Positions 5,077 to 62,588 of a stretch of DNA of 64,000 nt are shown one piece after another; position 1 is the stretch's first letter; each line of letters begins with the position of its first letter. The notes beneath the pieces were generated by a model. The model was not told where the DNA came from. It did no database searches and worked only from the letters and a program-made list of their open reading frames with translations. A program made the position numbers and the translations under genes. The DNA is from an uncultured Sphingorhabdus sp. Its GTDB lineage: Bacteria; Pseudomonadota; Alphaproteobacteria; Sphingomonadales; Sphingomonadaceae. The stretch is taken from assembly GCA_947501885.1 (NCBI GenBank), contig CANMXN010000001.1:868001-932000 (forward strand), in the 5' to 3' direction.

Positions 5077-5658
5077 TTATGCGGCTGCCTTTTCATCATT
5101 TTGTTCTTGCGGAAATGGGAAGCCGAAAAGACGCAATAATTCGCGTGCTTCGTCATCCGTTTTTGCCGAAGTAGTTACGATCACATCCATACCGCGCACC
5201 ACGTCGATGGCGTCATAGCTGATCTCTGGGAAAATAATTTGCTCTTTCAAGCCCATCGCAAAATTACCGCGACCATCAAAACTTTTTGGGTTCAACCCGC
5301 GAAAGTCACGAATACGAGGCATAGCAATTGTTACCAAACGTTCGATAAATTCAAACATTTGCGTGCGGCGCAATGTTACCTTCACACCGATAGGCATGCC
5401 TTCACGCAATTTAAACGTTGCGATAGATTTTTTCGCACGCGTTATCACTGCTTTTTGACCTGCAATAAGTTCCATTTCGGCAAGAGCGGTGTTCACCTTT
5501 TTCTTGTCCTGAGAACCTTCACCCACACCCATATTAAGTGTGATTTTTTCAATTTTTGGCACCGCAAGATGATTGCTATAACCAAATTTCTCAGTCATCG
5601 CTTTTACGATTTCATCTTCATAGCGTTTTTTCATGCGTGGGATATATTTATCAGCCAT
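5077..5658 (-). CDS. rplE: 50S ribosomal protein L5
   Basis: L5 binds 5S rRNA and contacts the P-site tRNA. The 193-residue sequence shows [16 protein letters not shown], the [22 protein letters not shown] loop, and [24 protein letters not shown]. Its first eight bases overlap the end of rplX (ATGGCTGA), so termination of rplX directly exposes this start. Confidence 0.97.
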
Positions 5659-5971
5659 CGATCATTTCCCCTGATTTAACAGCAACACGAACTTTTTTGC
5701 CGTCTTTGTCTTCAAAACGAACGCGTGTGGCCTTGCCGTCTTTTGGATCAGCTACAGCAACATTGGAAATATCCATAGCCGCTTCAAATTTATCAATTCC
5801 GCCTTGCGGATTTTCTTGGCTTGGTTTGCGGTGGCGCGTTGCAATATTCATACCTGTAACAATAATTTTACCGTCTTTGGGCATAACTTTTGAAACTTCG
5901 CCAGTTTTGCCTTTATCTTTACCAGCCAAAACAACGACATTATCGCCTTTTTTAATCTTTGCCATAGCCAT
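5651..5971 (-). CDS. rplX: 50S ribosomal protein L24
   Basis: L24 is an assembly-initiating protein of the large subunit. The KOW motif is visible as [20 protein letters not shown] near the N-terminus. The protein has 106 residues if the first ATG (5971, overlapping the rplN stop as TAATG) is used. A second ATG two codons on (5965) is equally possible. Its end overlaps rplE by eight bases. Confidence 0.96.
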
Positions 5972-9853: not shown

Positions 9854-10472
9854 TGAAACGCGCCTCCAATTTTTCAACGCCAGCGCGTGTCAAGACCAAC
9901 GTGTCATGGTTCAAAATGTCATAAACATTCGCACCAGCAGCCAACATCACATCAAGGCCAAGCAAATTGGATGAAGCATTGCGGAAATTATCATTCACCG
10001 CTTCACCATCAATCACCAAAGCCGTGCGGCCAAAACCAAGCTTATCAAGCTGTGACTTAAGTGCAGCCGTTTTCGGTGCCTTCAAATCCAAATTATCCAA
10101 GACAATCAAGCTGCCATCTTTTGCTTTCGCAGACAAAGCCATTTTAAGGCCCAATGTACGAATTTTCTTGTTCAATGATGGGTTGAAATCACGCAGGCGA
10201 GCACCATGCGCTTTACCACCACCAATAAAGATAGGAGCACGGCGATCACCGTGACGCGCTGTACCGCCGCCTTTTTGACGACCGAATTTCTTACCCGTAC
10301 GCGCAATATCGCTACGCTCACGTGTTGGACGCGCAGTGGCCCGCTTCTTTTCACGTTGCCAATTGACGACGCGGTGCAAAATATCAGCGCGAGGCTCAAG
10401 ACCGAATATGTCATCTGACAATTCAATATCGCCTTTTGCTTTTGCTTCGAGGGTTTGTACTTTTAATTTCAT
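9846..10472 (-). CDS. rplD: 50S ribosomal protein L4
   Basis: L4 lines the exit tunnel and, in E. coli, autoregulates the S10 operon. The 208-residue protein includes the long basic loop [43 protein letters not shown] typical of L4 and a C-terminal globular region ending [19 protein letters not shown]. It is 3 nt after rplC. See the structured gap upstream of rplC for a possible target of autoregulation, which is inferred only. Confidence 0.97.
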
Positions 10473-10475
10473 GTC

Positions 10476-11270
10476 TTAGCCCTCCCCATCTGTCTTGGTT
10501 TCTGCAGCATTAGTTTCCGCTGGAGTATCTGCACCAGCTTCAACCGCTGTATCAACAGCTTCTGGAGCTTCTTTTGTTTCAACAGCATCATTATCAGCTT
10601 TTAAAGAAGCTGGGAATGGAGCACCTTCAGGAGCAGGTAATTTCACAGAATCACGCACTAAGAGCCAAGCATTTTTTGCACCTGGCACAGAACCCTTCAC
10701 AAAAATCAAACCACGATCTGTATCAGTACGAACGATTTCAAGATTTTGCTGTGTGCGTTGGCGGTCACCCATGTGGCCCGCCATCTTCTTGCCCTTAAAG
10801 ACTTTACCAGGATCTTGACGATTACCCGTTGAACCATGCGAACGGTGAGACAATGACACACCGTGCGTTGCACGAAGACCACCAAAGTTCCAGCGCTTCA
10901 TAGCACCCGCAAAACCCTTACCTTGCGTATGACCTGTCACATCAACCATTTGACCATCTACAAAATGATCAGCCGAAAGGACAGAACCTACAGGTAAAAG
11001 AGCTTCTTCGCTATCAACACGAAATTCTGCGATACGAGCCTTTGGCTCAACAGATGCTTTTGCAAGCTCTTCACGTTGCGGTTTATTAATATTTTTCGCT
11101 TTACGGACCCCAGAACCAACACGAACAGCCAAATAGCCATCGGTATCATTACTGCGGTTTCCGACCACTTGACATCCCTCAAGAGCCAATACGGTAACAG
11201 GGACATGCTGACCATCTTCTTGGAAGATGCGCATCATACCCATTTTTTTCGCGATCACGCCAGTGCGCAT
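10476..11270 (-). CDS. rplC: 50S ribosomal protein L3 with acidic C-terminal tail
   Basis: L3 nucleates large-subunit assembly and reaches the peptidyl-transferase centre. The core ([20 protein letters not shown] at the start; [44 protein letters not shown], containing the glutamine that PrmB methylates) is intact. At 264 residues it is about 50 longer than the usual protein. The excess is a C-terminal Ala/Glu/Thr-rich tail ending TKTDGEG. An SD-like AGGAGAAAGG stands just before the ATG. Confidence 0.97.
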
Positions 11271-11424
11271 GACCTTTCTCCTTCACAGAGGCCCATACAG
11301 CACCATTGCTCTACGGGCGTGATTAAAATTCTTCTAACCCAATTTTATGCTGTGCCCCGTCCGGGCTAGGTGCCGTTCATCCCACATGGGAGAAAAGCAA
11401 GACGGGAACGCAGCCCGACATTTT
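11271..11424 (-). promoter_or_regulatory. Structured leader upstream of rplC
   Basis: The gap between rpsJ and rplC has no credible reading frame. As minus-strand RNA it can fold. GTCGGGCT pairs with AGCCCGGAC (one bulge), TCCC/GGGA forms a hairpin inside it (TCCCATGTGGGA), and ACAGCA pairs with TGCTGT nearer the rplC start. The pairings were found by eye. Together with the promoter candidate just upstream, this looks like a 5' leader for the rplC-to-secY operon, perhaps a site for ribosomal-protein feedback. No known leader family was recognised. Confidence 0.4.
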
Positions 11425-11430
11425 CTAATG

Positions 11431-11460
11431 AAAATAATCGGCGGTATTCCTATTTTGCAA
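11431..11460 (-). promoter_or_regulatory. Candidate housekeeping promoter for rplC
   Basis: Read on the minus strand, TTGCAA (11455-11460) is followed after 18 nt by TATTTT (11431-11436). These resemble -35 and -10 elements and would start RNA near 11424. The match is partial (three mismatches in total), so it is suggestive only. Its place between the rpsJ hairpin and the structured rplC leader makes it plausible. Confidence 0.3.
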
Positions 11461-11482
11461 GAGTTACTGCACCCTTGAAACA

Positions 11483-11502
11483 CTGATATTTTCCAATATC
11501 AG
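11483..11502 (-). terminator. Hairpin just after rpsJ
   Basis: A perfect 8-bp inverted repeat with a 4-nt loop, CTGATATT-GGAA-AATATCAG on the minus strand, begins 17 nt after the rpsJ stop. The stem is AT-rich and the following bases (TGTTTC) are only weakly U-rich. It is therefore a poor intrinsic terminator and may instead protect or process the 3' end of rpsJ RNA. Confidence 0.35.
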
Positions 11503-11518
11503 ACGCCAAAACCGAAGT

Positions 11519-11830
11519 TTAAGCGAGTTTAATCTCTACATTCACACCAGCAGCTAGATCAAGCTTCATCAAAGCATCAACCGTTTCTGGTGTAGGTTGC
11601 ACAATATCGAGCAACCTTTTGTAAGTACGCACTTCAAACTGCTCACGTGATTTTTTGTTAACGTGAGGACCACGGTTCACCGTGAATTTCTCAATGCGGG
11701 TTGGCAATGGTATAGGACCACGGATTAAGGCGCCCGTACGGCGTGCCGTGTCAGCAATTTCATGCGTTGCTTGATCAAGAACGCGATGATCAAAAGCCTT
11801 AAGTCGAATACGAATATTCTGCGTTTCCAT
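11519..11830 (-). CDS. rpsJ: 30S ribosomal protein S10
   Basis: S10 is a small-subunit head protein and is also NusE in antitermination complexes. The 103-residue sequence starts [20 protein letters not shown] and has [27 protein letters not shown] and [19 protein letters not shown]. An ATG two codons upstream (11836) is also in frame, but the METQ start is the family norm. It is the only gene between the terminator-like hairpins after tuf and the hairpin before rplC, so its transcription probably relies on read-through or an unseen promoter. Confidence 0.97.
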
Positions 11831-11855
11831 AGTCATTTATACCAATATCAAAGAG

Positions 11856-11905
11856 CCAAAAAATAAATTCACCTTTACCTTGCTAGCAAGAAAGAAAAAG
11901 GTGAA
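11856..11905 (-). terminator. Strong intrinsic terminator downstream of tuf (second of two)
   Basis: On the minus strand TTCACCTTT (11897-11905) pairs with AAAGGTGAA (11868-11876). Inside this CTTGC-TA-GCAAG extends the stem, and TTTATTTTTT follows at once (about 11858-11867). This is a classic hairpin plus U-tract. It ends only about 25 nt before the rpsJ start, which leaves almost no room for an rpsJ promoter after it. Confidence 0.75.
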
Positions 11906-11947
11906 CCCAAAAATCTCAAGCCGCCCAGTCCAAACGAATCAGGCGGC
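11906..11947 (-). terminator. First terminator-like hairpin downstream of tuf
   Basis: On the minus strand GCCGCC (11942-11947) pairs with GGCGGC (11920-11925) across a 16-nt loop. It is followed by TTGAGATTTTTGGG. It starts 15 nt after the tuf stop. Together with the stronger hairpin that follows, it forms a tandem terminator or attenuator after the very highly expressed tuf gene. Confidence 0.55.
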
Positions 11948-11961
11948 GTGAGCGTTCTATA

Positions 11962-13152
11962 TTACTTAGTTATCGATCCGACAACCCCTGATCCAACAGT
12001 ACGACCACCTTCACGAATAGCAAAACGCAATCCTTGGTCCATAGCAATTGGCGCAATCAATTTCACATTGATGGTTACATTATCACCAGGCATCACCATT
12101 TCGGTGCCATCTGGAAGAATAACTTCACCCGTTACGTCCGTTGTACGGAAGTAGAATTGTGGACGATAGTTTGCGAAAAATGGTGTGTGACGACCACCTT
12201 CATCTTTTGAAAGCACGTAAACTTCCGCAGAGAATTCTGTGTGCGGCGTAACGCTACCAGGCTTACAAAGCACCTGACCACGCTCAACTTCTTCACGAGC
12301 AACACCGCGGATCAACGCGCCAATATTATCACCAGCCTCACCTGAATCAAGCAGCTTGCGGAACATTTCAACGCCCGTAACGGTTGTTTTGGCTGTTTCT
12401 TTAATGCCAACGATTTCAACTTCGTCACCAACATTCACAACGCCTGTTTCAACACGCCCCGTTACAACAGTACCACGACCAGAAATTGAGAACACATCTT
12501 CAACTGGCATCAAGAAGTCTTTGTCTACTGGACGATCAGGTTGCGGAATGAAATCATCAACAGCTTTCATAAGCTCAAGAATTTTTTCTTTACCGATATT
12601 ATCATCACGGCCTTCAAGTGCTGCAAGAGCAGAACCAGAAATGATAGGAATATCATCACCAGGAAAATCATATTCAGAAAGAAGTTCACGAATTTCCATT
12701 TCAACAAGCTCTAGAAGCTCTTCATCATCAACTTGGTCAACTTTGTTCATGAAAACAACCATAGCTGGCACACCAACTTGGCGAGCAAGCAAGATGTGTT
12801 CCTTGGTTTGCGGCATTGGACCATCAGCAGCATTCACCACCAAAATAGCACCATCCATTTGCGCAGCGCCAGTGATCATGTTTTTCACATAGTCAGCGTG
12901 ACCTGGGCAATCAACGTGCGCATAGTGACGACCTTCGGTTTCATATTCAACGTGAGCCGTTGAAATGGTGATGCCACGCTCACGCTCTTCAGGAGCTTTA
13001 TCGATGTTTGCAAAATCAACAGCTTCACCGCCGGTTGATTCAGCAAGTACTTTTGTAATCGCCGCTGTAAGTGTGGTTTTACCGTGGTCAACGTGACCAA
13101 TGGTGCCAATGTTACAGTGCGGCTTGTTCCGTTCAAACTTTGCTTTTGCCAT
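11962..13152 (-). CDS. tuf: Elongation factor Tu
   Basis: EF-Tu delivers aminoacyl-tRNA to the ribosome as a GTP complex. The 396-residue sequence has G1 GHVDHGKT, switch-[18 protein letters not shown]4 NKVD and the C-terminal domains through [33 protein letters not shown]. It follows fusA by 203 nt, a gap with no gene seen. On the minus strand that gap holds a good -35-like TTGACA (13221-13226), but no clear -10. Only one tuf copy is in the window. Confidence 0.98.
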
Positions 13153-13355
13153 TTTATCCTACCTTTATATTCAAACTATATGTTCTCATGCCCGCGCGCA
13201 GTGGCGCGATTGTGAGCAATTGTCAAGTGCTTGCGAAAAAATTGATGCTTGAAAGCGACATCTTTTTCACTTTTGCGTGAAATGGCATATCGTTCAAACA
13301 CGCCATATCACATTATCTACGAATCTAGATGGCGCTAATAGCGCAATCCCTACTC

Positions 13356-15449
13356 TTATGCCAGCTTCTCTTTCAATTCTTCTGCAACATTATTTGGTAC
13401 AGGTTCATAGTGAGAGAATTGCATGCTATATTGCGCACGGCCTTGCGTAAATGAACGCAGTTCATTCACATAACCAAACATATTAGCAAGCGGCACCATA
13501 GAATCGACGACCTGCGCGTTACCGCGACTATCAGTACCCTGGATTTGGCCACGGCGGCTGTTCATATCGCCGATCACATCACCCAAATATTCCTCTGGCG
13601 TTACCACTTCAACCTTCATCACAGGCTCAAGCAATTGAATGCCAGATTTTTGCGCTGCCTCGCGCATCGCTGCACGGCCTGCAATTTCAAATGCAAGAGC
13701 TGAGGAGTCAACATCATGGTAAGCGCCATCATAAAGACGAATATCGAAATCGATAATTGGGAAACCAATGAGCGATCCGCTCTCAGCCGTTTCACGCATA
13801 CCTTTTTCAACAGATGGGATATATTCTTTTGGAATGTTACCACCTTTAATCTCATCATTAAAAGTAATACCCGCTCCGCGCTCGCCTGGCGTTACTTCGA
13901 ACTTCACACGTGCAAATTGACCAGAACCACCAGATTGCTTCTTATGGGTATAATCAATTTCAACAGCACGGCTGAGCGATTCACGATAAGCCACCTGCGG
14001 TGCACCAACATTGGCTTCCACTTTAAATTCGCGCTTCATACGATCAACCAAAATATCAAGGTGAAGTTCACCCATGCCTTTGATGATGGTTTGACCTGAT
14101 TCATGATCAGTAGTCACACGGAATGATGGATCCTCTGCTGCCAGACGATTAAGCGCAACGCCCATTTTCTCTTGGTCAGCTTTTGTTTTTGGTTCCACAG
14201 AAAGTTCAATCACAGGCTCAGGGAACTCCATACGCTCCAAGATAATCGGATCAGATGATGCACAAAGCGTATCACCTGTGGTGGTCGCCTTCATACCTGC
14301 AAGCGCAACAATATCGCCCGCCATTGCCTCTTCAATATCTTTACGATCATTCGAGTGCATCTCAAGGATACGCCCGACTTTTTCTTTCTTATCCTTCACA
14401 GAGTTGAGGATCGTGCCTTTTTCAAGCTTACCGGAATAGATACGGCAGAATGTCAAAGAACCCACAAATGGATCGTTCATCACTTTAAATGCAAGGGCTG
14501 AAAATGGCTCATCATCGCTAGATGGGCGCGTAGCAGCGGTTTCACCATCAAGCAAAACACCATCAATGGCAGGCACATCAAGCGGGCTAGGCAGATAATC
14601 AATAACTGCATCAAGTAGCGGCTGAACACCTTTGTTTTTGAAAGCACTACCGCAGCACACAGGAACGAAGCTCTGGTTCAATGTGCCTTTACGAATTAAT
14701 GACTTCAGCGTTGGAACATCAGGTTCATTACCTTCTAGATATTGCTCCATCACATCATCGTCTTGCTCAACGGCAAGCTCGATGAGCTGCTCACGATATT
14801 GCGCAGCTTCATCGGCCATATCTGCTGGAATGTCACCATATTCAAATTCAGCACCAAGGCCATCATTTTTCCAAACGATAGAACGTTGGTTTACCAAATC
14901 TACAAGGCCAATCAAATCTGCCTCTATACCAATTGGCAAATAAAGAACCGCAGGCGTTGAACCCAAACGATCGATGATAGATTGCACACAATATTTGAAA
15001 TCAGCACCCGTGCGATCAAGCTTGTTAATGAAGCACATGCGCGGCACACCATATTTATCAGCCTGACGCCACACAGTTTCAGATTGTGGTTCAACACCCG
15101 CAACACCATCAAAACAAGCTACCGCACCATCGAGCACACGTAGAGAGCGTTCTACTTCAATCGTGAAATCAACGTGCCCTGGCGTATCAATAATGTTGAT
15201 ACGATGCTCATCACCCTTGCCATCATCAGCCGTCCAGAAACAAGTAGTAGCCGCAGAAGTAATGGTAATCCCACGCTCTTGCTCTTGCTCCATCCAATCC
15301 ATGGTTGCAGCGCCATCATGCACTTCGCCAATTTTATAGGATTTACCTGTATAATATAAGATGCGCTCGGTTGTTGTGGTTTTACCCGCATCAATATGCG
15401 CCATAATGCCGATATTACGATATTTATCCAGTTGATGGCTGCGTGCCAT
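13356..15449 (-). CDS. fusA: Elongation factor G
   Basis: EF-G catalyses GTP-driven translocation of the ribosome. The 697-residue protein has G1 AHIDAGKTT, switch-[12 protein letters not shown]4 [10 protein letters not shown] and full domains II to V (for example HVD-region [31 protein letters not shown] and the C-terminal [16 protein letters not shown]). It follows rpsG by 185 nt in standard str-operon order. Confidence 0.98.
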
Positions 15450-15559
15450 GATTTTTACTCCATAGTGGGGATGGCCAATACCATCCTGTTTATGATTGGC
15501 ATCTCAAATGATCTGCCCGTTAATAATGTGCCAATTAATATTTGGGCCTATAGTAAAGA

Positions 15560-15579
15560 GGGCTGGATAATACCAGCCC
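15560..15579 (-). terminator. GC-rich hairpin between rpsG and fusA
   Basis: A perfect 7-bp stem, GGGCTGG-TATTAT-CCAGCCC on the minus strand, lies 56 nt after the rpsG stop and is followed by TCTTTACTATAG. The U-tract is weak. It could be a leaky terminator or processing hairpin that sets the relative levels of S7 and EF-G. The rest of the 185-nt gap shows no gene. Confidence 0.45.
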
Positions 15580-15634
15580 CCAATATTACAATATGTAATT
15601 TTCCTCATCGCCTAACCAGCAAGAGGAAATATCA

Positions 15635-16105
15635 TTACCAGCGATAATGGGCAAATGCACGGTTAGCATCTGCCATTTTATGAGTGTCTTCGCGCTTCTT
15701 AACTGCGTTACCGCGGTTATTCGCTGCATCCATAAGCTCGCCTGAAAGACGCGCTGCCATAGTTGTTTCGCTGCGGCCACGCGCTGCACTCACCAACCAA
15801 CGAATGGCTAGCGCTTGAGCACGTTCTGGGCGCACATCAACTGGCACCTGATACGTTGCACCGCCGACACGGCGAGAGCGCACTTCTACTTGTGGTTTAA
15901 TATTATCCAAAGCTTCATGAAATATGCCCAATGGTTCTTTTTTGGCTTTGGCTTCAACAGCATCAAGCGCGCCATATACAATGCGCTCTGCGGTTGATTT
16001 CTTACCATCTACCATCAAATTGTTCATGAATTTTGAAAGAACCTGATCTCCAAACTTAGGATCAGGAAGGATTACCCGTTTCTCGGGACGACGACGACGT
16101 GCCAT
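15635..16105 (-). CDS. rpsG: 30S ribosomal protein S7
   Basis: S7 nucleates assembly of the 16S rRNA 3' domain. The 156-residue sequence starts [20 protein letters not shown] and has [54 protein letters not shown] and the terminal [13 protein letters not shown]. It is 15 nt after rpsL. Confidence 0.98.
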
Positions 16106-16120
16106 TTTCTATTCTCCTGA

Positions 16121-16492
16121 TTATTTAGGACGCTTAGCGCCATATTTGGAACGAGATTGTTTACGATCTTTCACGCCTTGGGTATCCAAAACGCCGCGAA
16201 GCACGTGATAACGCACACCGGGAAGATCGCGAACACGACCACCACGAATAAGAACAACACTATGCTCTTGCAAGTTATGGCCTTCACCAGGAATATAGCT
16301 AATAACTTCGCGTTGGTTAGTAAGACGCACTTTGGCAACCTTACGCAATGCGGAGTTAGGCTTTTTCGGAGTCGTTGTATAAACTCTTGTGCAAACACCG
16401 CGCTTTTGCGGATTTTGGTCCATAGCAGGTACTTTTGATTTTACCTTCTGTGGCACCCGGCCTTTGCGGACCAGCTGATTAATCGTTGGCAT
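16121..16492 (-). CDS. rpsL: 30S ribosomal protein S12
   Basis: S12 controls decoding accuracy and is the streptomycin-resistance locus. The 123-residue sequence has [11 protein letters not shown] with the lysine of the streptomycin site retained, and [13 protein letters not shown] including the aspartate methylthiolated by RimO. The wild-type residues suggest a streptomycin-sensitive allele. It is the first gene of the str operon here; rpoBC are not in the window. Confidence 0.98.
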
Positions 16493-16622
16493 AAAGTCTT
16501 CACCTTATATCTAGAAATTCTAGGGTTACTCTGATGATGCGAACCACCACCATTGTTTTGCCTAATGTAGTTTCGGAAACATAATCACAGGAAATACCCA
16601 TGACTGTGAAACAGAAGCGCGG

Positions 16623-16651
16623 CCTTTAACGAGGATTCGGTATAAGGTCAA
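16623..16651 (-). promoter_or_regulatory. Candidate promoter for the str operon
   Basis: On the minus strand TTGACC (16646-16651) and TAAAGG (16623-16628) are separated by exactly 17 nt and would start transcription near 16615, about 120 nt upstream of rpsL. The -35 is one base from consensus, while the -10 is weaker. It lies between the fic stop and rpsL. Confidence 0.4.
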
Positions 16652-16679
16652 GACAGATTAAAAATTACAAGATTATGAA

Positions 16680-17363
16680 TCAATGAAATTTAGGGTTTTT
16701 CTGTTCAATTGCTCCTGATGTATCAGCTTGCTCAAAAGTACTTGCCAACTGAACACTGAAATAATGTTTCAGCAACCCCTCCATCTCCGTCACATCTAAA
16801 GTTCCATTACTCCAGCTATTATCTGCGCTCTCTAATGCGTCATAATAAGGTTGCCGCCCTGCTGCTATTTGCTCTGGTATAGTTTGAGTTCCTGGCAATC
16901 TGTCCCCAATTTTAGCACACATCGCTAAATATGATACTGCTCGGGATGTTCTTCCATTACCGTCCAGAAAAGGATGTATCCAATTTAAACGCCACATCAA
17001 ATAAGCACATATCTCTAATGCCGATAATTCATCCCAATTATCATTAACATAATCACACATCTCTTCAATCAACCTAGGAACATCGCTCTCATGAGGAGGC
17101 TTATGTTTGCTTTTTTCTATAGCTACTGAAGATGGACGCCAAGTTCCAGCATATCTTGAAAGCTCATCCAAGGCTAGCTTATGAAGTGATAATATTATAG
17201 AAGGCCGTAATTTAAAACTTCGCCCATCTCTTGCAACTTCATCTATCAAATCCAAAACAGCATCAAATTGACGCACTGCATTTTCTGCTTCTTTTTTAGC
17301 AACTTCATCAGGATCAGTTAATAAATCTGGTTCACTGCCTACGCTTTCTCTTTCGCCTCCCAT
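16680..17363 (-). CDS. Fic-domain protein (probable AMP-transferase toxin)
   Basis: Fic enzymes usually transfer AMP from ATP to target proteins. The full active-site motif HPFLDGNGRTSR is present from His130 (227-residue protein), preceded by the core helices (ELSALEICAYLMWRLNWI). An AMP target-binding flap is likely around residues 83 to 92. The reading frame can be extended to a TTG at 17366, but the ATG at 17363 shares one base with the stop of the small upstream gene (TGATG). That coupling favours the ATG. The upstream 57-residue partner probably supplies the inhibitory helix, making this a class I-like toxin-antitoxin pair. The target is unknown. It lies just upstream of the str operon, an unusual address for such a pair. 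Confidence 0.85.
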   Translation of the reverse strand: MGGERESVGSEPDLLTDPDEVAKKEAENAVRQFDAVLDLIDEVARDGRSFKLRPSIILSLHKLALDELSRYAGTWRPSSVAIEKSKHKPPHESDVPRLIEEMCDYVNDNWDELSALEICAYLMWRLNWIHPFLDGNGRTSRAVSYLAMCAKIGDRLPGTQTIPEQIAAGRQPYYDALESADNSWSNGTLDVTEMEGLLKHYFSVQLASTFEQADTSGAIEQKNPKFH

Positions 17364-18149: not shown

Positions 18150-19209
18150 GCACAGCTCCTTTGGGATCCAATATGCCGACAGCCGCCGTAAACCCTGGGC
18201 CAAGCGCCGTCATGACGATCGGCTTGGTCGGATTATCGATCAATAAATCTTTGAGGACAAATAATATCGTTGGTGAGGACATATTACCATGTTGGCGCAG
18301 CACATTGCGTGTTGTATCTATATTGCCTACATCATTGCCAAAATAATCATCCAAAGCGTCTACCACTCGTCCCCCGCCAGGATGGCAAGCGGGTTCTCCC
18401 ATATCGCGGCGGTTGATATTGTGCGCCGTCAAAAATACATCGCAAAATGGTGCGAAATCTTGCGTTACAAAGCTAGGAATATCGCGCGCTAATACCAGAT
18501 CAAACCCCGTATCACTTATATCCCAACCCATCATATCGCGCGTATCAGGCCATGTCTTTTGATCAAAGGCGCGGAAAGTGGGCGCATTGCCCCGCCCTTC
18601 TTTTCCGCTTAACACTACTGCCGCACAACCATCGGCAAAAAGAGCAGTGGCGATCATATTCTTCTTGTCAAATTGGCTATAATCATAAGATAGGCTGCAA
18701 AGCTCCAGCGCAATTAACAGGACATTTTGCCCTTCAATATTACCGCTTTTCACATCGGCCAATTGATCGGCCAGCCGCAGGCCCAATAATCCGCCCGCAC
18801 AACCATATCCAAAAACAGGGACGGTTTGAATATTATCCCGGAAACCCAATTCTTTTATCATAGCCGCTGGGATAGAAGGCGTTACTGTACCAGTCGTCGA
18901 GATGTAGATAATAGCATCAATATCGGCGGGCCTCAGATTTGCCTCATCTAATGCTTTTTGCGCCGCTTCTTGCGCCAGAACCATAGCAGTATCGGCATAT
19001 ATTACACTGCGTTCTTGCCAACTGCGTTCTTTCAAATAAAAGTCCGCTGGTCTTGTTAAATAGCGATTGGTGATGCCGCTATTACTTAATATTTGCTCAA
19101 GCCGAGATGGCAGCGCCGTTCCTCTTGCTCGTGCCAAAATTTCAAGCACGTCATTCTGGTGTATTTTATGAGGGGGCAATGCGGTGGAAATTGATTTTAA
19201 ATAGGACAC
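18142..19209 (-). CDS. Type III polyketide synthase (chalcone synthase-like)
   Basis: This 355-residue enzyme is a homodimeric thiolase-fold synthase that extends an acyl-CoA with malonyl units. The catalytic triad is visible: Cys137 in FGYGCAGG, His276 in CHPGGGRVVDAL and Asn309 in RQHGNMSSPT. Bacterial relatives coupled to ICMT-like methyltransferases make long-chain alkylpyrones or alkylresorcinols for membranes. The overlapping downstream gene fits that class. The starter substrate and product cannot be read from sequence. Confidence 0.88.
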   Translation of the reverse strand: MSYLKSISTALPPHKIHQNDVLEILARARGTALPSRLEQILSNSGITNRYLTRPADFYLKERSWQERSVIYADTAMVLAQEAAQKALDEANLRPADIDAIIYISTTGTVTPSIPAAMIKELGFRDNIQTVPVFGYGCAGGLLGLRLADQLADVKSGNIEGQNVLLIALELCSLSYDYSQFDKKNMIATALFADGCAAVVLSGKEGRGNAPTFRAFDQKTWPDTRDMMGWDISDTGFDLVLARDIPSFVTQDFAPFCDVFLTAHNINRRDMGEPACHPGGGRVVDALDDYFGNDVGNIDTTRNVLRQHGNMSSPTILFVLKDLLIDNPTKPIVMTALGPGFTAAVGILDPKGAVHG

Positions 19210-19295
19210 ATAGGGCCTTCGCTCTTTATCCGATGCTTGTTACACTGCAGCATTAATAAAGATAAGATTTTACTGCGATAGAAAAAGCCCGCAAA

Positions 19296-20390
19296 TCAAC
19301 CCAATATGCCCAATGTTAATAAGAGAAATAGGAAGAGTATGATTACAAAAAATATGCCAATACATAATAAGAATAACCGAACGATAGTTTGCATCCTAGA
19401 GAGCTGATACGCATATTTAATTTGTTTATAGAGATGCAACAAAGGAATGAAAACCAGTGCGGGAATAGTCCATCCACCGCTGACGCCCAGAGCATTTATT
19501 ACCGCCATGAAGATAAATAATAAGCTCATAAAGCTAATCGAATAGATGGTGAAAATCGCATGATCATAGAAATGATATCCACGAAGGCCAATCATCGCGA
19601 ACCAAACGAAAGGGATGGACAATGGGATGAGCAGCCATGCAAATTTATAACCATTAGACTTCATTTTATAGAATGTTAATGCAGTGTTTTCATTAGTTAA
19701 TTTAATACCATCCACCAATTTTTTAGCAAAGATTCCATTCTTATCGGCCCATTCATCCATTCCATCGGTATGAATAATTGATCCATCATTTTGAAAAATG
19801 GTCGCATCCTCTGGTATAATTTCTCCACCGCCTTGAACATGCTTCTCTGCAATATATTCATTACCAGGGCTTACCAATGATAATGCCGTTTCTAACCCTT
19901 TGAGTTTTTCCTCATTATCTACACCTTCATCATCCACTAATTCACCATCGGCAATATCACGCTTCACAAATGCAATTTGCTCCTCAAGGGCTTGGTTACC
20001 TATGTCTCTAACTTCTTCAAAAGTGTTTTCATCATTATTGATATCAGATAAATTCGGGCCTCTAATAAATGAAAAAACGGCAAACATCATAAATATCGAG
20101 AATAGAAATATCGCCATTGGTGATATATATTGCGCTCTTTTTCCAGCAATATATTCGCGCGTCAAAACCCCAGGCTTGAACGAAAGCATTGGTAATGTGC
20201 GCCAAAATTTACCATCAAAATGCAGCACTCCGTGTAAAAAGTCATGCCATATCGCGCCTATAGAACGGTGGATATGGGCGCTCTGGCCACATTGTGCACA
20301 ATAGGAGTTTTGAAGCAGTTCATTACAATTCAGGCAATGATTCACAATATTGTCACCCAAATTATCGCTTTTATCTTTATTTCGCGCCAT
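19296..20390 (-). CDS. DUF3667-type membrane protein with N-terminal zinc ribbon
   Basis: The start at 20390 (MARNKDKSDN...) is chosen because the upstream gene ends at 20399. The 364-residue protein opens with a zinc-ribbon-like Cys19xxCys22...Cys31xxCys34 pattern, then the DUF3667 hallmark HDFLHGVLHFDGKFWRTLPMLSFKPGVLTREYI and GKRAQYISP. About five membrane spans follow, the last at the C-terminus. Between spans 1 and 2 is a long acidic soluble segment, roughly residues 90 to 220. The function of the family is unknown. Confidence 0.75.
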   Translation of the reverse strand: MARNKDKSDNLGDNIVNHCLNCNELLQNSYCAQCGQSAHIHRSIGAIWHDFLHGVLHFDGKFWRTLPMLSFKPGVLTREYIAGKRAQYISPMAIFLFSIFMMFAVFSFIRGPNLSDINNDENTFEEVRDIGNQALEEQIAFVKRDIADGELVDDEGVDNEEKLKGLETALSLVSPGNEYIAEKHVQGGGEIIPEDATIFQNDGSIIHTDGMDEWADKNGIFAKKLVDGIKLTNENTALTFYKMKSNGYKFAWLLIPLSIPFVWFAMIGLRGYHFYDHAIFTIYSISFMSLLFIFMAVINALGVSGGWTIPALVFIPLLHLYKQIKYAYQLSRMQTIVRLFLLCIGIFFVIILFLFLLLTLGILG

Positions 20391-34323: not shown

Positions 34324-35385
34324 ATGAAAAAAATTGCAATTTTGGGATTGGGTAATGTCGGATCATTAGCGGCTGTGTTGCTGCATGATTCAGGTTTTGA
34401 CGTTATTGGTGTGGATCAGCATGATGCGCCAGATAAAGCTTATGAAACCCGCCAGATAGATTTAAATGATGAGGATTTGGTGGTATCTTTATTTGGTGAA
34501 ATTGACGCGGTGTTATCCTGCCTACCTTATGATTTAAATGCCAAATTGGCTGTTCAAGCTTGCGATGCGGGCATTCATTATTTCGATCTCACCGAAGATG
34601 TACCTACCACCCAATCTATCATTGAACTATCCAAACGCTCCAAGGGGTTAATGGCACCACAATGCGGATTAGCTCCCGGTTTTGTGGGCATAGTTGGCAG
34701 CGATTTAATCGGTAAATTTGATACAGCGCGTAATTGCCGTATGCGTGTAGGAGCGCTTCCTCAAAACCCAACGGGTTTAATGGGCTATGCTTTTAATTGG
34801 TCACCAGCGGGCGTGGTCAATGAATATCTCAACGATTGCGAAGTGATTGAAGGTGGCGAACGCAAAACACTTTCCTCGATGGAATGGCACGAAACCATCT
34901 ATATCGATGGGATGGAATTAGAGGCCTTTACCACATCGGGCGGCCTTGGGACAATGTGTGAAACTTTCCATGGCAAGGTTGCCAATTTGGATTATAAAAC
35001 TATGCGTTATCCAGGTCATATGAAATTGATGAATTTCTTTTTCCACGAGCTATTAATGCGTCAGCGCCGCGAAGAAGCAGGCGAAATATTAGTACATGCA
35101 AAACCACCCGTAAAAGACGATATTGTTTATGTGCATATCAGCTGTGAAGGCGAGCAAAATGGACGCGCCGCCCGCGAAGAATTTGTGCGCGGTTATCGCC
35201 CAAAAATGATAGCAGGCGAAATGCGCACCGCTATAGCATGGACAACAGCTGCATCGGTTGTCGCTGTCATCGAAATGGTGCGCGATGGGAAATTGCCTAA
35301 TGCAGGTTTCTTGAAACAAGAAGATATCAGCTTTGATGATTTTATCAGCACGCCAACTGGTGCATTATATGCTAGCGAAACATGA
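34324..35385 (+). CDS. Saccharopine dehydrogenase-family enzyme, lysine-6-dehydrogenase-like
   Basis: The 353-residue protein starts with a dinucleotide-binding fold (AILGLGNVGSLAAVLL). From memory it matches lysine 6-dehydrogenase across its length: APGFVGIVGSDLIGKFD, SPAGVVNEYLNDCEVIEGGERKTLSS, ELEAFTTSGGLGTMCETF and LDYKTMRYPGHMKLM. Such enzymes oxidise the epsilon-amino carbon to a semialdehyde and ammonia with NAD(P). It is the first gene of a tight operon (14, 12 and 1 nt gaps) with an ALDH7, a KamA-like and an aminotransferase gene. The substrate may be lysine or beta-lysine. Confidence 0.8.
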   Translation: MKKIAILGLGNVGSLAAVLLHDSGFDVIGVDQHDAPDKAYETRQIDLNDEDLVVSLFGEIDAVLSCLPYDLNAKLAVQACDAGIHYFDLTEDVPTTQSIIELSKRSKGLMAPQCGLAPGFVGIVGSDLIGKFDTARNCRMRVGALPQNPTGLMGYAFNWSPAGVVNEYLNDCEVIEGGERKTLSSMEWHETIYIDGMELEAFTTSGGLGTMCETFHGKVANLDYKTMRYPGHMKLMNFFFHELLMRQRREEAGEILVHAKPPVKDDIVYVHISCEGEQNGRAAREEFVRGYRPKMIAGEMRTAIAWTTAASVVAVIEMVRDGKLPNAGFLKQEDISFDDFISTPTGALYASET

Positions 35386-35399
35386 GATAAGGACAGATT

Positions 35400-36908
35400 A
35401 TGAATTACGCAGAAGAAGTCACCGACATTTTCAAAGCCATCGGCGCGGATCACGACCTACAAAATGGTGATCTAGCCGTCACCTCTCCACTGAATGGTGA
35501 GGTGATAGCCCATGTCACAATGACAAAGGCCGATGAGGTCGCAAATATAGTGCAAAAATCCCATACAGCCTTTGAGCAATGGCGCACATTTACAGCACCA
35601 AGACGCGGTGAATTGCTACGCTTATTGGGTGAAGAATTGCGCACCCACAAAGACGCATTGGGCCGTTTGGTCAGTATAGAAGCAGGCAAAATCCCATCTG
35701 AGGGTTTAGGCGAAGTCCAAGAAATGATCGATATTTGCGATTTCGCAGTTGGCCTATCACGCCAATTATATGGCCTAACCATTGTGTCAGAACGCCCTGG
35801 CCACCGCATGATGGAAAATTGGCACCCTTTGGGCGTCGTTGGTATTATTTCAGCCTTTAATTTCCCTGTTGCAGTTTGGTCATGGAATAGCGCTTTGGCG
35901 CTGGTGACAGGCAATAGTATCCTATGGAAACCATCCGAGAAAACGCCTCTAACGGCCATAGCCTGCCAAGCGATATTACAGCGCGCACTCGCCAAATTTG
36001 GCGATGCTCCCGATAATCTTGCGCAGCTCATTATTGGTGCGGGTGATGTCGGCAATGCGATGGTTGAAAATCATAATGTAGCCCTAATCTCCGCTACAGG
36101 TTCAACCCGTATGGGCCGCATTGTAGGCCCCAAAGTTGCAGCACGTTTTGGCAAAAGCATCCTCGAGCTAGGCGGCAATAATGCGATGATCATTGCGCCA
36201 TCCGCGGATCTTGAAATGGCTACTAATGCAGCTGCTTTTGGGGCTATGGGAACGGCGGGACAGCGTTGTACCTCGACGCGCAGATTATTCGTACATGATG
36301 ATGTTTACGATCAAATCGTTCCGCGTATTAAGAGTGCCTATAAATCCATTAGCGTCGGTAATCCGCTTGATGGAGACAATTTGGTCGGTCCGCTTATCGA
36401 CAAAGATGCTTTTGATAATATGCAAGCATCCTTGAGCAAAGCGCGAGAACAAGGTGCGCATATCCAAGGCGGCGAGCGTCATGATACAGGCAATGAAAAT
36501 GCTTATTATGTGCGCCCTGCCGTTGCAGAAATTAGTGAACATGAAGGCATTGTTTTACAAGAAACATTTGCGCCGATCTTATACATTATGCGCTATAGCG
36601 AGTTGAGCGATGCCATCGCCATGCAAAACGCCGTGGGTGCTGGGTTATCATCGGCTATATTCACGCTAAACCTGCGCGAAGCAGAGACCTTCCTGAGTGC
36701 GATGGGCAGCGATTGCGGTATTGCTAATGTCAATATTGGTACATCAGGCGCAGAAATTGGCGGTGCTTTTGGCGGCGAAAAAGAAACGGGCGGTGGCCGC
36801 GAATCTGGCAGCGATGCTTGGAAAGCTTATATGCGCCGTGCTACCAATACGATTAATTATTCATCTGATTTACCATTGGCACAAGGTGTGTCATTCGATA
36901 TCGATTAA
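35400..36908 (+). CDS. Aldehyde dehydrogenase, ALDH7 (aminoadipate-semialdehyde dehydrogenase) type
   Basis: This NAD-dependent enzyme of 502 residues closely follows the ALDH7/antiquitin pattern: GVVGIISAFNFPVAVWSWN, NSILWKPSEKTPLTA, SILELGGNNAMIIAPSADL with the catalytic glutamate, and GTAGQRCTSTRRLFVHD with the catalytic cysteine. ALDH7 oxidises 2-aminoadipate 6-semialdehyde to aminoadipate. In this operon the 3-amino isomer is also a possible substrate (inference). It is 14 nt after the dehydrogenase gene. Confidence 0.92.
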   Translation: MNYAEEVTDIFKAIGADHDLQNGDLAVTSPLNGEVIAHVTMTKADEVANIVQKSHTAFEQWRTFTAPRRGELLRLLGEELRTHKDALGRLVSIEAGKIPSEGLGEVQEMIDICDFAVGLSRQLYGLTIVSERPGHRMMENWHPLGVVGIISAFNFPVAVWSWNSALALVTGNSILWKPSEKTPLTAIACQAILQRALAKFGDAPDNLAQLIIGAGDVGNAMVENHNVALISATGSTRMGRIVGPKVAARFGKSILELGGNNAMIIAPSADLEMATNAAAFGAMGTAGQRCTSTRRLFVHDDVYDQIVPRIKSAYKSISVGNPLDGDNLVGPLIDKDAFDNMQASLSKAREQGAHIQGGERHDTGNENAYYVRPAVAEISEHEGIVLQETFAPILYIMRYSELSDAIAMQNAVGAGLSSAIFTLNLREAETFLSAMGSDCGIANVNIGTSGAEIGGAFGGEKETGGGRESGSDAWKAYMRRATNTINYSSDLPLAQGVSFDID

Positions 36909-36920
36909 TGGAGAAAATAT

Positions 36921-38372
36921 ATGACCGTTATTGAAACCAAGCCATTAAGAGCCGCCAAATATCAACCCAGCGAGAAAGAAGCCGCTTATATCTCCACCGT
37001 GAAAAACGGCAAATATGATCGGCAAATCATAGCAGGTTTACAAAAGTTCGTCACAGGCAATGTACCCGACGATATGAAAGCTTTTTACAGCGCCGATGAA
37101 TTAGATGCATTGGTTGGTTTACGGTCTTCTCCTGCCGATGTTGAAACGCGGATGCCCGTCAAAATTACCCGCCATTATTTCGATATAGCCAAAAATAGCC
37201 CCGCCATTCGGCAGCTTGTAAAGGCTAGTCCTAACGAAACAATGGACTTAGAAGGCGCCCCAGACCCAGGCAATCAGATGAGTTATAGCCCTGTTGAAGG
37301 GTTAATCCACAAATATGAATTGGGTCTCATCTATGTTGCATCGACCTGCTCCGCGCATTGCCGATTTTGCTATCGCGAAGAATTAATCGCCAAAAAAGAG
37401 ATTGAGCGTGATGATGGCAGCACCAAGGCAAAAGGCCTCGCGCAAATCGGCGAACTTACTGATTATATTATCGAACATAATCGCATTGTTAAGGAAAATG
37501 GCGGTATCCATCCAGAAACAGGGCGCGAGAAATTGCGTGAGATTCTGATGTCAGGCGGTGATCCGATGGTATTGGGTAATAAGAACCTTGCCCAATGGTT
37601 TGCAGCTCTTGCGACCGCGGGAGTTGAAAACATTCGGCTAGGAACCAAAGAGCTAGCCTTTTATCCTGATCGTTTTGATGCAACATTTTTTGACATGCTT
37701 GATGGGTTTCATGAAGCCTATCCTGAAGTCAAATTACGTTTCATGATCCATTTTAATCATCCCGATGAATTTTTACAAAAAAATGCCGATGGCGTTTATA
37801 TGCAAAAAGAAGGCGGCGGATTGGTTTGGATTGAGAATACCAAAAAAGCGATAGACCAATTGGCGTCGCGCAACTGGCTCACCATTGATAATCAATCACC
37901 GCTCATTCGCGGTATCAATAACGATCCTGATGCGCTGCGTATCATGCAGCGCGAATTACGCCGTAATCGCGTTGAAAATCATTATTTCTTTTGCGGCCGT
38001 GACATTGTTGGACATAAAGCTTTTAATATTCCCATTGAACAAGCATGGCAGATTCTCAACGAATCACAAAAAGGACTCTCTGGTATCGAAGCTCATGCAC
38101 GGCTCTCTATCACCCATTATTTGGGCAAGACCGAGGTTGTTGCCGTTACCAATGAGCCTGCACCAAATGTAAAAGGCGGCGAAAACGGCCTTATCATCAT
38201 GAAACTGTTGCGCGGGGCAGCCGATGCTCCATTGCGCGGGAGAGTTGCTATTATGGGCCGCAATCCAGAGGCGATTTGGTTTGATGGGTATGATGACCGC
38301 GTCATATTAGATGAAGCAGGTTTATTCACTATCAAAGATCCCACAACTGAGGCACAAGCTCAAAAGGCATAA
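36921..38372 (+). CDS. kamA: KamA-family radical SAM aminomutase
   Basis: The 483-residue protein has the radical-SAM cluster motif CSAHCRFC (Cys143, Cys147, Cys150), ILMSGGDPMVL and LGTKELAFYPDRF, then NQSPLIRGINNDPDALRIMQREL, in the order of lysine 2,3-aminomutase. A lysine in ITHYLGKTEVV may be the PLP lysine. The family moves the alpha-amino group to C3 (L-lysine to L-beta-lysine). The sequence is clearly divergent from clostridial KamA around the substrate-carboxylate and amino-binding segments, so another amino acid is possible. A GGAGAA SD precedes the ATG. Confidence 0.78.
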   Translation: MTVIETKPLRAAKYQPSEKEAAYISTVKNGKYDRQIIAGLQKFVTGNVPDDMKAFYSADELDALVGLRSSPADVETRMPVKITRHYFDIAKNSPAIRQLVKASPNETMDLEGAPDPGNQMSYSPVEGLIHKYELGLIYVASTCSAHCRFCYREELIAKKEIERDDGSTKAKGLAQIGELTDYIIEHNRIVKENGGIHPETGREKLREILMSGGDPMVLGNKNLAQWFAALATAGVENIRLGTKELAFYPDRFDATFFDMLDGFHEAYPEVKLRFMIHFNHPDEFLQKNADGVYMQKEGGGLVWIENTKKAIDQLASRNWLTIDNQSPLIRGINNDPDALRIMQRELRRNRVENHYFFCGRDIVGHKAFNIPIEQAWQILNESQKGLSGIEAHARLSITHYLGKTEVVAVTNEPAPNVKGGENGLIIMKLLRGAADAPLRGRVAIMGRNPEAIWFDGYDDRVILDEAGLFTIKDPTTEAQAQKA

Positions 38373-38373
38373 T

Positions 38374-39681
38374 ATGAATAAGAGCGAAGAATTATATGAA
38401 CGTGCGCTACAAATCCTTCCTGGAGGATGTAGCCGTAATACGGTTCTTCGCAAACCTCATCCGCTTTACCACAGTCATGCCAATGGCGCTTTTATTACCG
38501 ATGTAGAAGGCGTTAAGCGTTGTGATTTTGCCAATAATATGGCGGCGCTCATTCATGGTCATGCGCATCCTGCTATTACTGAGGCAGTAACGCAGCAACT
38601 CAGCAAAGGCAGTGCTTCAACCTTTGCAAGCGAAATTGAAATTATATTCGCAGAGCATCTTATTGCGCGTAGTCCTTCGTTCGAGAAATTACGTTTTGTC
38701 AATAGCGGAACCGAAGCCGTTATGGCAGGGATAAAGGCAGCGCGAGCATATAGCGGAAAAGCCAAAATTGCCAAAGTAGAGGGCGCTTATCATGGGCTTT
38801 ATGATTATGCGGAGGCAAGCCAAACTGCCAAACCCGATAATTGGGGAACATCTGAAAACCCCCAAAGCGTAGCTGTTGCGCATGGAACACCACAATCTGC
38901 ACTTGATGATGTGATTATCATCCCTTTCAATGATATTGAAACATCCTTAAAAATATTAAATGTCCATAAAGATGATTTGGCGACATTATTAATTGATCTC
39001 ATGCCGCACCGTGTGGCGCTACACCCTGCCAATAAGGACTATGTCGAGGCCCTATTCAATTGGACACGCGAAAATAATATTTTGTTTTTTTGTGATGAAG
39101 TCATTACCTATCGCAGCGAATATGGCGGGGCGCAAAGTTGGTATGATATTGACCCTGATCTCACTGCCATGGGCAAGATGATTGGCGGCGGCTTCCCCGT
39201 TGGTGCGATTGCTGGAAAAGCTTCTATCATGGATGTGATGAATCCACTAAACAAACCAATTCTCTTTCCACATAGCGGCACATTTTCAGCCAACCCGATA
39301 ACAATGGTCGCGGGATATACGGCCATGTCCCTATTTGATCGAGATACTGTTACCGCGCTCAACAAACTTACCCAATATTGCCGTGACAAGATTACAGAGG
39401 CTATCAACATTGCCGATGTTGACGCCTGTGTTGCTGGCGCTGGGTCGATGTTCCGCCTGCATATGCGCCGCGATATACCCAATGATTATCGCAGTGCCTA
39501 TCAAGCTGAGAATAAAGAAATTTCATTTTTACTGGACCATCTTTTCGATAATGGCTTTTCCATGATTAATACATGTTCAGGGGCCTTATCCACAGTGATG
39601 GAAAAAAGGGATATAGACAATTTTGCTGATATATTGTTGGATGGGCTTCGCGCATTGAAGGCTAGGCGCACACTATACTAG
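38374..39681 (+). CDS. Class III aminotransferase, GSAM-like, beta-amino-acid type
   Basis: The start at 38374 is one base after the kamA stop. The 435-residue PLP enzyme has RFVNSGTEAVMAGI, the PLP-aspartate FFCDEVITYRS and the Schiff-base Lys268 in AMGKMIGGGFPVGA, then PHSGTFSANPITMVAGY. Its N-terminal PGGCSRNTVLRKPHPLY has an arginine (Arg21) where beta-amino-acid transaminases of this fold bind the substrate carboxylate; GSAM has a different sequence there. It is therefore more likely a beta-amino-acid aminotransferase than hemL. A 16-bp tandem repeat covers its stop codon. Confidence 0.78.
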   Translation: MNKSEELYERALQILPGGCSRNTVLRKPHPLYHSHANGAFITDVEGVKRCDFANNMAALIHGHAHPAITEAVTQQLSKGSASTFASEIEIIFAEHLIARSPSFEKLRFVNSGTEAVMAGIKAARAYSGKAKIAKVEGAYHGLYDYAEASQTAKPDNWGTSENPQSVAVAHGTPQSALDDVIIIPFNDIETSLKILNVHKDDLATLLIDLMPHRVALHPANKDYVEALFNWTRENNILFFCDEVITYRSEYGGAQSWYDIDPDLTAMGKMIGGGFPVGAIAGKASIMDVMNPLNKPILFPHSGTFSANPITMVAGYTAMSLFDRDTVTALNKLTQYCRDKITEAINIADVDACVAGAGSMFRLHMRRDIPNDYRSAYQAENKEISFLLDHLFDNGFSMINTCSGALSTVMEKRDIDNFADILLDGLRALKARRTLY

Positions 39682-61880: not shown

Positions 61881-62588
61881 CTATACATCTTGCCGTTCGC
61901 GTGTCATGCGAAACTCTATCTTCTTGTCATAAGGTGCACCAATAATAAGGCGCTGCACATATATGCTAGGCAAATGAATGGCATCTGCGTCAAGGCTACC
62001 GACAGGAACAATCTCTTCTACCTCTGCAACGCAAATTTTACCCGCCGTTGCCATGGGTTGATTAAAATTACGCGCTGTTTTGCGGAAAACCAAATTTCCA
62101 GATTCATCGGCTTTCCAAGCCTTTACCAAACTGACATCAGCATGAATAGCCCGTTCGAGCAGATAATCTTGCCCATCAAAATTCTTCACTTCTTTACCTA
62201 TGGCGATGTCCGTACCAACACCAGTTTTCGTATAAAAACCCTCAATACCAGCACCACCAGCGCGGCAGCGCTCGGCTAATGTACCTTGCGGTGCAAATTC
62301 CACCTCAATATCACCATCCAAATACTGCCGCTCAAACTCTTTATTTTCTCCAACATAAGAAGAGATCATCTTTTTAATTTGGCGATTGTTAAGCAAATGC
62401 CATAAACCATGACCATTCGCCCCTGCATTATTGGATGCGATCGTTAAGTCTTTAACGCCATCTTTTACCATGGCATCGATCAGTTTTTCAGGGACCCCAC
62501 ATAAGCCGAATCCGCCAACGCATAAATGCATGCCATCAAACAATAATCCATTGAGAGCGCTGATTGCATCTTTATATATTTTTTGCAC
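61881..62588 (-). CDS. 3-oxoacid CoA-transferase subunit A
   Basis: The 235-residue protein has the alpha-subunit motifs GMHLCVGGFGLCGVPEKLIDAM, SNNAGANGHGLWHLLNNRQIKKMISSYVGENKEFER and EFAPQGTLAERCRAGGAGIEGF. It is of the ScoA class and transfers CoA between succinyl-CoA and an oxoacid such as acetoacetate. The start is a GTG (62588). The matching beta subunit is not next to it: the downstream gene is phosphomannose isomerase on the other strand and no B subunit occurs in the window. Confidence 0.9.
   Translation of the reverse strand: MQKIYKDAISALNGLLFDGMHLCVGGFGLCGVPEKLIDAMVKDGVKDLTIASNNAGANGHGLWHLLNNRQIKKMISSYVGENKEFERQYLDGDIEVEFAPQGTLAERCRAGGAGIEGFYTKTGVGTDIAIGKEVKNFDGQDYLLERAIHADVSLVKAWKADESGNLVFRKTARNFNQPMATAGKICVAEVEEIVPVGSLDADAIHLPSIYVQRLIIGAPYDKKIEFRMTRERQDV

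Follow-up and report, generated by a model that had tools for sequence, protein, structure and literature searches.

What is a KamA-like radical S-adenosylmethionine (SAM) aminomutase doing in an operon with genes for lysine oxidation? The question is raised by a 64,000-nucleotide stretch of contig CANMXN010000001.1 from an uncultured Sphingorhabdus sp. (this whole stretch is the window). Four open reading frames (ORFs) lie head to tail on its forward strand at 34324-39681, with intergenic gaps of 14, 12, and 1 bases. They encode a lysine-6-dehydrogenase-like protein (LysDH), an ALDH7, a relative of KamA, and an aminotransferase. The original prediction recognized this four-gene operon, and the ORFs, gaps, and family matches bear it out, but it placed beta-lysine as the first intermediate. 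We conclude that this is quite probably a lysine catabolic operon that proceeds via 2-aminoadipate, 3-aminoadipate, and 3-oxoadipate. Gene families, the operon itself, conserved linkage, and a residue exchange are the observed features from which we infer all substrates. We therefore propose a form of lysine catabolism that is assembled from known families, with one new enzyme activity. Two narrower questions follow: (i) the substrate of the aminomutase and (ii) the order in which the four enzymes act.

The first two genes, by their context, support lysine as the likely input in the window, as had been predicted. The LysDH-like protein contains saccharopine-dehydrogenase-type NAD(P) and C-terminal domains (PF03435, 29.4 bits, and PF16653, 75 bits), and a PDB sequence comparison gives 3abi as its closest solved relative (69.4 bits), a structure that is named as L-lysine 6-dehydrogenase in PMC10413350. 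By this similarity, it would convert lysine to 2-aminoadipate 6-semialdehyde/piperideine-6-carboxylate. The ALDH7 exceeds the cut-off of 730 bits for the NCBIfam L-piperidine-6-carboxylate dehydrogenase equivalog and matches 6dbb, 6rtr (Pcd), and 2jg7 in the PDB. The aminotransferase is a GSAM-like class III enzyme, yet it scores under the GSAM cut-offs (TIGR00713, 296.2 bits versus 527.3). PGGCSR, a motif that we take to mark beta-amino-acid aminotransferases, or PGGVSR is present in 48 of the 51 aminotransferases of the cluster. For the start of this gene we preferred the ATG located 1 base past the aminomutase stop codon; the ORF list has a longer form that begins at 38311.

Addressing the first question, the window aminomutase is a very divergent KamA relative that falls under the cut-off in all six NCBIfam models matched (best 92.7 bits versus 600). 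It has no Pfam match at E 0.001, and a PF04055 search of its own genome at E 0.001 also misses the protein. The KamA structure 2a5h is matched by sequence and ranks first in a fold search (E 3.6e-15) with the predicted structure, for which 44 alignment rows were used (predicted local distance difference test score, pLDDT, of 83). Because the TM-score to 2a5h is only 0.57/0.66 and the root mean square deviation is 7.7, residues were mapped by sequence alignment rather than by superposition. Numbering was fixed by aligning the canonical KamA L010 to 2a5h, which places D293 in YQCD and D330 in VVDAPGGGGK337. We take D293 and D330 to be the Asp pair that holds lysine in KamA.

Comparison was made among 82 aminomutases: that of the window, those of 80 loci on genome contigs (the best 80 of 100 confirmed, numbered with the prefix L), and one from a Mesorhizobium plasmid. 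Three of them (L072, L079, and L085) lie outside the 79-row alignment and the tree, and their motifs were read separately. Every one of the 82 has the CxxxCxxC radical SAM motif. The residues of the window protein equivalent to R134, D293, D330, and K337 of KamA are Arg152, Arg360, Ser396, and Lys403, respectively. The lysine that binds pyridoxal 5'-phosphate (PLP; K337) and R134 are retained in 79/79 aligned proteins. The position of D293, however, is Arg in 79/79 and in the three read separately (82/82), and at that of D330 the 79 have Ser (70) or Thr (9), and the other three have Ser (Ser/Thr in 82/82). Both Asp residues are kept in the canonical KamA controls L010 and L011.

The protein thus resembles KamA in its SAM motif, its K337 and R134 equivalents, and its first structure match, but differs at the Asp pair and in score (79.2 bits against the lysine 2,3-aminomutase model TIGR03820, which has a cut-off of 525.4); the exchange and this score led us to reject the name KamA. 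In glutamate 2,3-aminomutase the lysine-binding Asp residues are replaced by Lys and Asn, a change that is tied to glutamate binding in PMC3965090. By analogy with that enzyme, Arg plus Ser/Thr points to an acidic substrate rather than lysine. The likeness lies in the basic residue at the first position; the pair itself differs (Lys and Asn there, Arg and Ser/Thr here), and the score against the glutamate 2,3-aminomutase model TIGR04368 is 89.6 bits, with a cut-off of 650, so that name was also rejected. With regard to existing annotations, a Rhizobium protein with Arg at the D293 position (L095) is called lysine 2,3-aminomutase, and the relatives L093 and L094 come from unannotated Paenibacillus and Rhodococcus stretches. 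To judge by these residues, annotation of Arg-type KamA relatives as lysine 2,3-aminomutases is doubtful.

The genes around the aminomutase in relatives suggest where its product goes. Within 12 kb of it, at the 82 loci (window included), we identified the aminotransferase at 52, coenzyme A (CoA)-transferase subunits A and B at 40 and 38, a LysR regulator at 37, the ferredoxin FdxA at 18, a PcaF-like thiolase at 13, ALDH7 at 8, and LysDH at 6. Chance alone does not account for the association of aminomutase and aminotransferase. At 36/82 loci the aminomutase is accompanied by the aminotransferase and by both subunits of the CoA-transferase (these genes, with the aminomutase, are hereafter the core), and the PcaF-like thiolase is also present at 13. 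The most complete arrangement is in L085 (Acidimicrobiales), where aminomutase, CoA-transferase A and B, aminotransferase, ALDH7, and LysDH form one unidirectional run (10001-16780). L049 has this six-gene set plus FdxA, all on one strand, and L030 has the same, but with LysDH on the opposite strand. All four genes of the window operon recur with CoA-transferase in L030, L049, and L085. ALDH7 or LysDH is near the aminomutase at only 9/82 loci.

Two types of neighbor identify a probable exit from the pathway. The CoA-transferase of L025 belongs to the PcaI/PcaJ family, of which ScoAB is also a member. All 12 thiolases tested singly (10 of the 13 linked ones and 2 of 4 from Colwellia) pass the cut-off of the 3-oxoadipyl-CoA thiolase equivalog TIGR02430; a genome search adds those of L034 and of the remaining two Colwellia, and those of L043 and L089 were outside the test. 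In L059 the aminotransferase is followed not by CoA-transferase and thiolase but by a BKACE protein (5101-5946), which is recognized as a 3-oxoadipate:acetyl-CoA acetyltransferase (NF053568, 477 bits versus 350). With two unrelated 3-oxoadipate-using systems beside the aminomutase-aminotransferase pair, 3-oxoadipate is the likely product of the pair and is well supported as the end product of the pathway. The likely substrate of the aminotransferase is therefore 3-aminoadipate, and this step of the original prediction gains support from context. The predicted exit by CoA transfer and thiolysis is likewise supported by context in relatives; the genome of the window has no PcaF-grade thiolase.

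These neighbors also bear on a reading that we consider unlikely, in which the osmolyte beta-glutamate is made by the aminomutase, acting as a glutamate 2,3-aminomutase, and is degraded to 3-oxoglutarate by the aminotransferase module. That reading would account for the basic residue at the D293 position, shared with the glutamate enzyme as described in PMC3965090, and for lone aminomutases and genomes without ALDH7 by score. Set against it are the residue pair and TIGR04368 score given above, and neighbors that score as 3-oxoadipate enzymes and that include, at the nine loci, ALDH7 or LysDH.

Addressing the second question, the core occurs without a nearby dehydrogenase or ALDH7 at 32 of its 36 loci. 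Gene content was counted in 50 genomes, which belong to 50 of the 80 loci picked for spread; these genomes share ancestry, so the counts carry no probability. ALDH7 is above cut-off in 33 of the 50, the aminotransferase is present at an identity of at least 50% in 42 (one of them partial), and a LysDH-like protein at E 1e-40 or better is found in 18, all among the ALDH7-positive genomes. LysDH and ALDH7 are adjacent to each other, away from the contig of the aminotransferase, in genomes G081 (contig C22), G088 (C7), G072 (C64), G074 (C63), and G077 (C42). In all four Colwellia genomes examined (there are seven Colwellia loci), the aminomutase is alone, and CoA-transferase A and B, aminotransferase, and PcaF occur together at a second locus. 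A search by score of these four genomes revealed no ALDH7 above cut-off and no close LysDH. Because the core is mostly unlinked to LysDH and ALDH7 and is present in genomes with neither by score, we place the aminomutase after them, acting on 2-aminoadipate. If 2-aminoadipate feeds the core, then LysDH and ALDH7 make up one of several modules that could supply it.

The same data argue against the order that had been predicted, in which the aminomutase acts first to convert lysine to beta-lysine, the dehydrogenase oxidizes the epsilon position, ALDH7 yields 3-aminoadipate, and transamination gives 3-oxoadipate. Gene set and end product would be identical, and in a wide sense the aminomutase does belong to the KamA family. 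However, both Asp residues that bind lysine in KamA are replaced in 82/82 aminomutases, and the score of the ALDH7 is that of an ordinary piperideine-6-carboxylate dehydrogenase. In addition, the dehydrogenase and ALDH7 would have to act between aminomutase and aminotransferase, so this order poorly explains the split loci: the 32 core loci, the Colwellia genomes, and the pairs in G081, G088, and G072. Beta-lysine as first intermediate thus appears highly unlikely.

In the pathway via 2-aminoadipate, LysDH would convert lysine to 2-aminoadipate semialdehyde, in equilibrium with piperideine-6-carboxylate, and ALDH7 would oxidize the semialdehyde to 2-aminoadipate. The Arg-type KamA relative would then use the usual radical SAM/PLP mechanism to shift the amino group of this product from C2 to C3, producing 3-aminoadipate, which the aminotransferase would convert to 3-oxoadipate. 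In relatives, a PcaIJ-type CoA-transferase with PcaF thiolase, or in one case the 3-oxoadipate:acetyl-CoA acetyltransferase, would complete the conversion to succinyl-CoA plus acetyl-CoA or acetoacetate. More broadly, it is probable that lysine breakdown is linked to the beta-ketoadipate pathway by a modular series of reactions that begins with a new 2-aminoadipate 2,3-aminomutase and bypasses 2-oxoadipate and glutaryl-CoA. This pathway would have interchangeable exits (PcaIJ and PcaF, or a 3-oxoadipate cleavage enzyme) and would occur in genomes labelled Pseudomonadota, Planctomycetota, Actinomycetota, and Chloroflexota.

In known lysine routes, 2-aminoadipate continues via 2-oxoadipate. Those that pass through 2-aminoadipate (saccharopine, pipecolate, lysine 6-dehydrogenase) share LysDH-like and ALDH7 steps with the operon up to that point; here the continuation would be via 3-aminoadipate. 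Almost all MetaCyc lysine routes as of 2017 end at glutaryl-CoA, according to PMC5653290. The lower part of the beta-ketoadipate pathway uses the same CoA-transferase and thiolase families (PcaIJ and PcaF) that occur in the clusters of relatives, but there an aromatic ring supplies the 3-oxoadipate, whereas here it would be an amino acid. Among described systems, the fermentative lysine route with Kce and Kat comes closest; in it, according to PMC3149608, lysine breakdown involves a KamA-type enzyme and Kat, a HemL-like beta-aminotransferase. Its intermediates in that account are beta-lysine, 3,5-diaminohexanoate, and 3-aminobutyryl-CoA, whereas we propose that the aminotransferase acts on a free acid. 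A search of the open PubMed Central literature found neither a 2-aminoadipate aminomutase nor a pathway from lysine via 3-aminoadipate, and no match to the term 3-aminoadipate; subscription journals and MetaCyc were outside this search, and a report elsewhere is possible.

If the proposal is correct, it adds to lysine catabolism a route that includes a new radical SAM reaction and gives a function to a gene that is called a hypothetical protein in one annotated record (the Mesorhizobium plasmid). Arg at the KamA D293 position would provide a residue rule for finding relatives of KamA with possible activity on acidic amino acids. PcaIJ and PcaF located by such an aminomutase would signal lysine use, not aromatic degradation.

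Several observations weigh against the pathway via 2-aminoadipate. Arg at the D293 position also occurs in three distant plasmid KamA relatives (L093, L094, and L095), in which the second position is Ile, Ser, or Pro; it is therefore not special to the proposed pathway, and by itself it cannot separate aminoadipate from glutamate. No CoA-transferase was found nearby at 15 of the 52 loci that have the aminotransferase, including that of the window (some contigs end), and 26/82 loci have no pathway gene by the aminomutase, partly through contig ends. A clade of nine aminomutases from Acidimicrobiia (L067-L070, L073, L076-L078, and L081), all with Thr in place of D330, lacks pathway neighbors and may have another function. 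The presence of PcaF above cut-off in 36/50 genomes versus 0/14 control genomes speaks for the pathway, but PcaF-grade thiolases may serve other routes. Most genomes that lack ALDH7/LysDH linkage have ALDH7 elsewhere, which weakens the argument from missing linkage. Finally, ALDH7 above cut-off is absent from 17/50 genomes; two have fragments, and the other 15 reach at most 301.4 bits versus 730. Lysine 6-aminotransferase, considered as an alternative source of semialdehyde, is above cut-off in 0/15 of the latter, and no close LysDH was found in them.

Another enzyme that deaminates lysine at C-6 is mentioned for a marine bacterium in PMC9854754. Saccharopine-type C-terminal domains are encoded in 6 of the 15 genomes lacking ALDH7, with no trace to lysine breakdown. 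The marine enzyme is presumably lysine epsilon-oxidase.

Lone aminomutases do not constitute one old separate family, since pathway-linked and lone members are mixed in the aminomutase tree (83 rows, L094 left out), with 12 label changes versus a shuffled mean of 24.7. In this tree, the aminomutase of L048, from a contig labelled Blastopirellula (Planctomycetota), is nested among those of Paracoccaceae, which suggests either recent transfer or wrong binning.

The last steps are also a difficulty in the genome of the window itself, and these results count among the points against the pathway. No thiolase near the PcaF cut-off was found there (best 307.9 versus 597), and no match to BKACE, a family to which we take kce to belong. 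Three CoA-transferase subunits are encoded, one pair and the lone subunit A listed in Table 1, which we do not count as a pathway part because it has no subunit B beside it. The only pair adjoins a fumarylacetoacetate-hydrolase-type gene and may serve acetoacetate/tyrosine breakdown; 4-hydroxyphenylpyruvate dioxygenase is also encoded in the window. In this genome, the route is traceable only up to 3-oxoadipate.

Table 1. Genes of the lysine operon and the separate CoA-transferase gene in the window
Feature	Position	Strand	Details
Lysine-6-dehydrogenase-like gene	34324-35385	+	353 aa; PF03435 and PF16653 above cut-off; best PDB match 3abi
ALDH7, piperideine-6-carboxylate/2-aminoadipate semialdehyde dehydrogenase	35400-36908	+	502 aa; NF050084, 806.8 bits
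Arg-type KamA-family radical SAM, PLP-dependent aminomutase; proposed 2-aminoadipate 2,3-aminomutase	36921-38372	+	483 aa
Class III aminotransferase with PGGCSR; proposed 3-aminoadipate transaminase	38374-39681	+	about 435 aa
Lone 3-oxoacid CoA-transferase subunit A	61881-62588	-	TIGR02429, 237.7 bits; no subunit B adjoining

The missing exit would suit a reading to which we give a very slim chance, the smallest among the alternatives, namely that in the window only LysDH and ALDH7 serve lysine breakdown, and that the other two enzymes, aminomutase and aminotransferase, produce a beta-amino acid for some other purpose or arrived recently with no exit yet. No aminomutase match was found in any of the 24 congeners searched, some with incomplete genomes; the operon is therefore accessory in the genus, which this reading would also accommodate. 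It sits poorly with a single tight four-gene operon and with the recurrence of the same four genes beside CoA-transferase in L030, L049, and L085. The G+C content of the operon (0.46) is within one standard deviation (SD) of the 1.5-kb mean for the window (0.432, SD 0.031).

Two loci have further features. In an Acidimicrobiia genome, a 381-aa ORF lies between two class III aminotransferases that share 44% and 41% identity with that of the window (L123, 8065-11929). On the Mesorhizobium plasmid (L012), an unlisted stretch (19137-20049) by the CoA-transferase beta subunit gene resembles an alpha subunit, with the frame seemingly disturbed near its end, and a BREX defence locus is located upstream of it.

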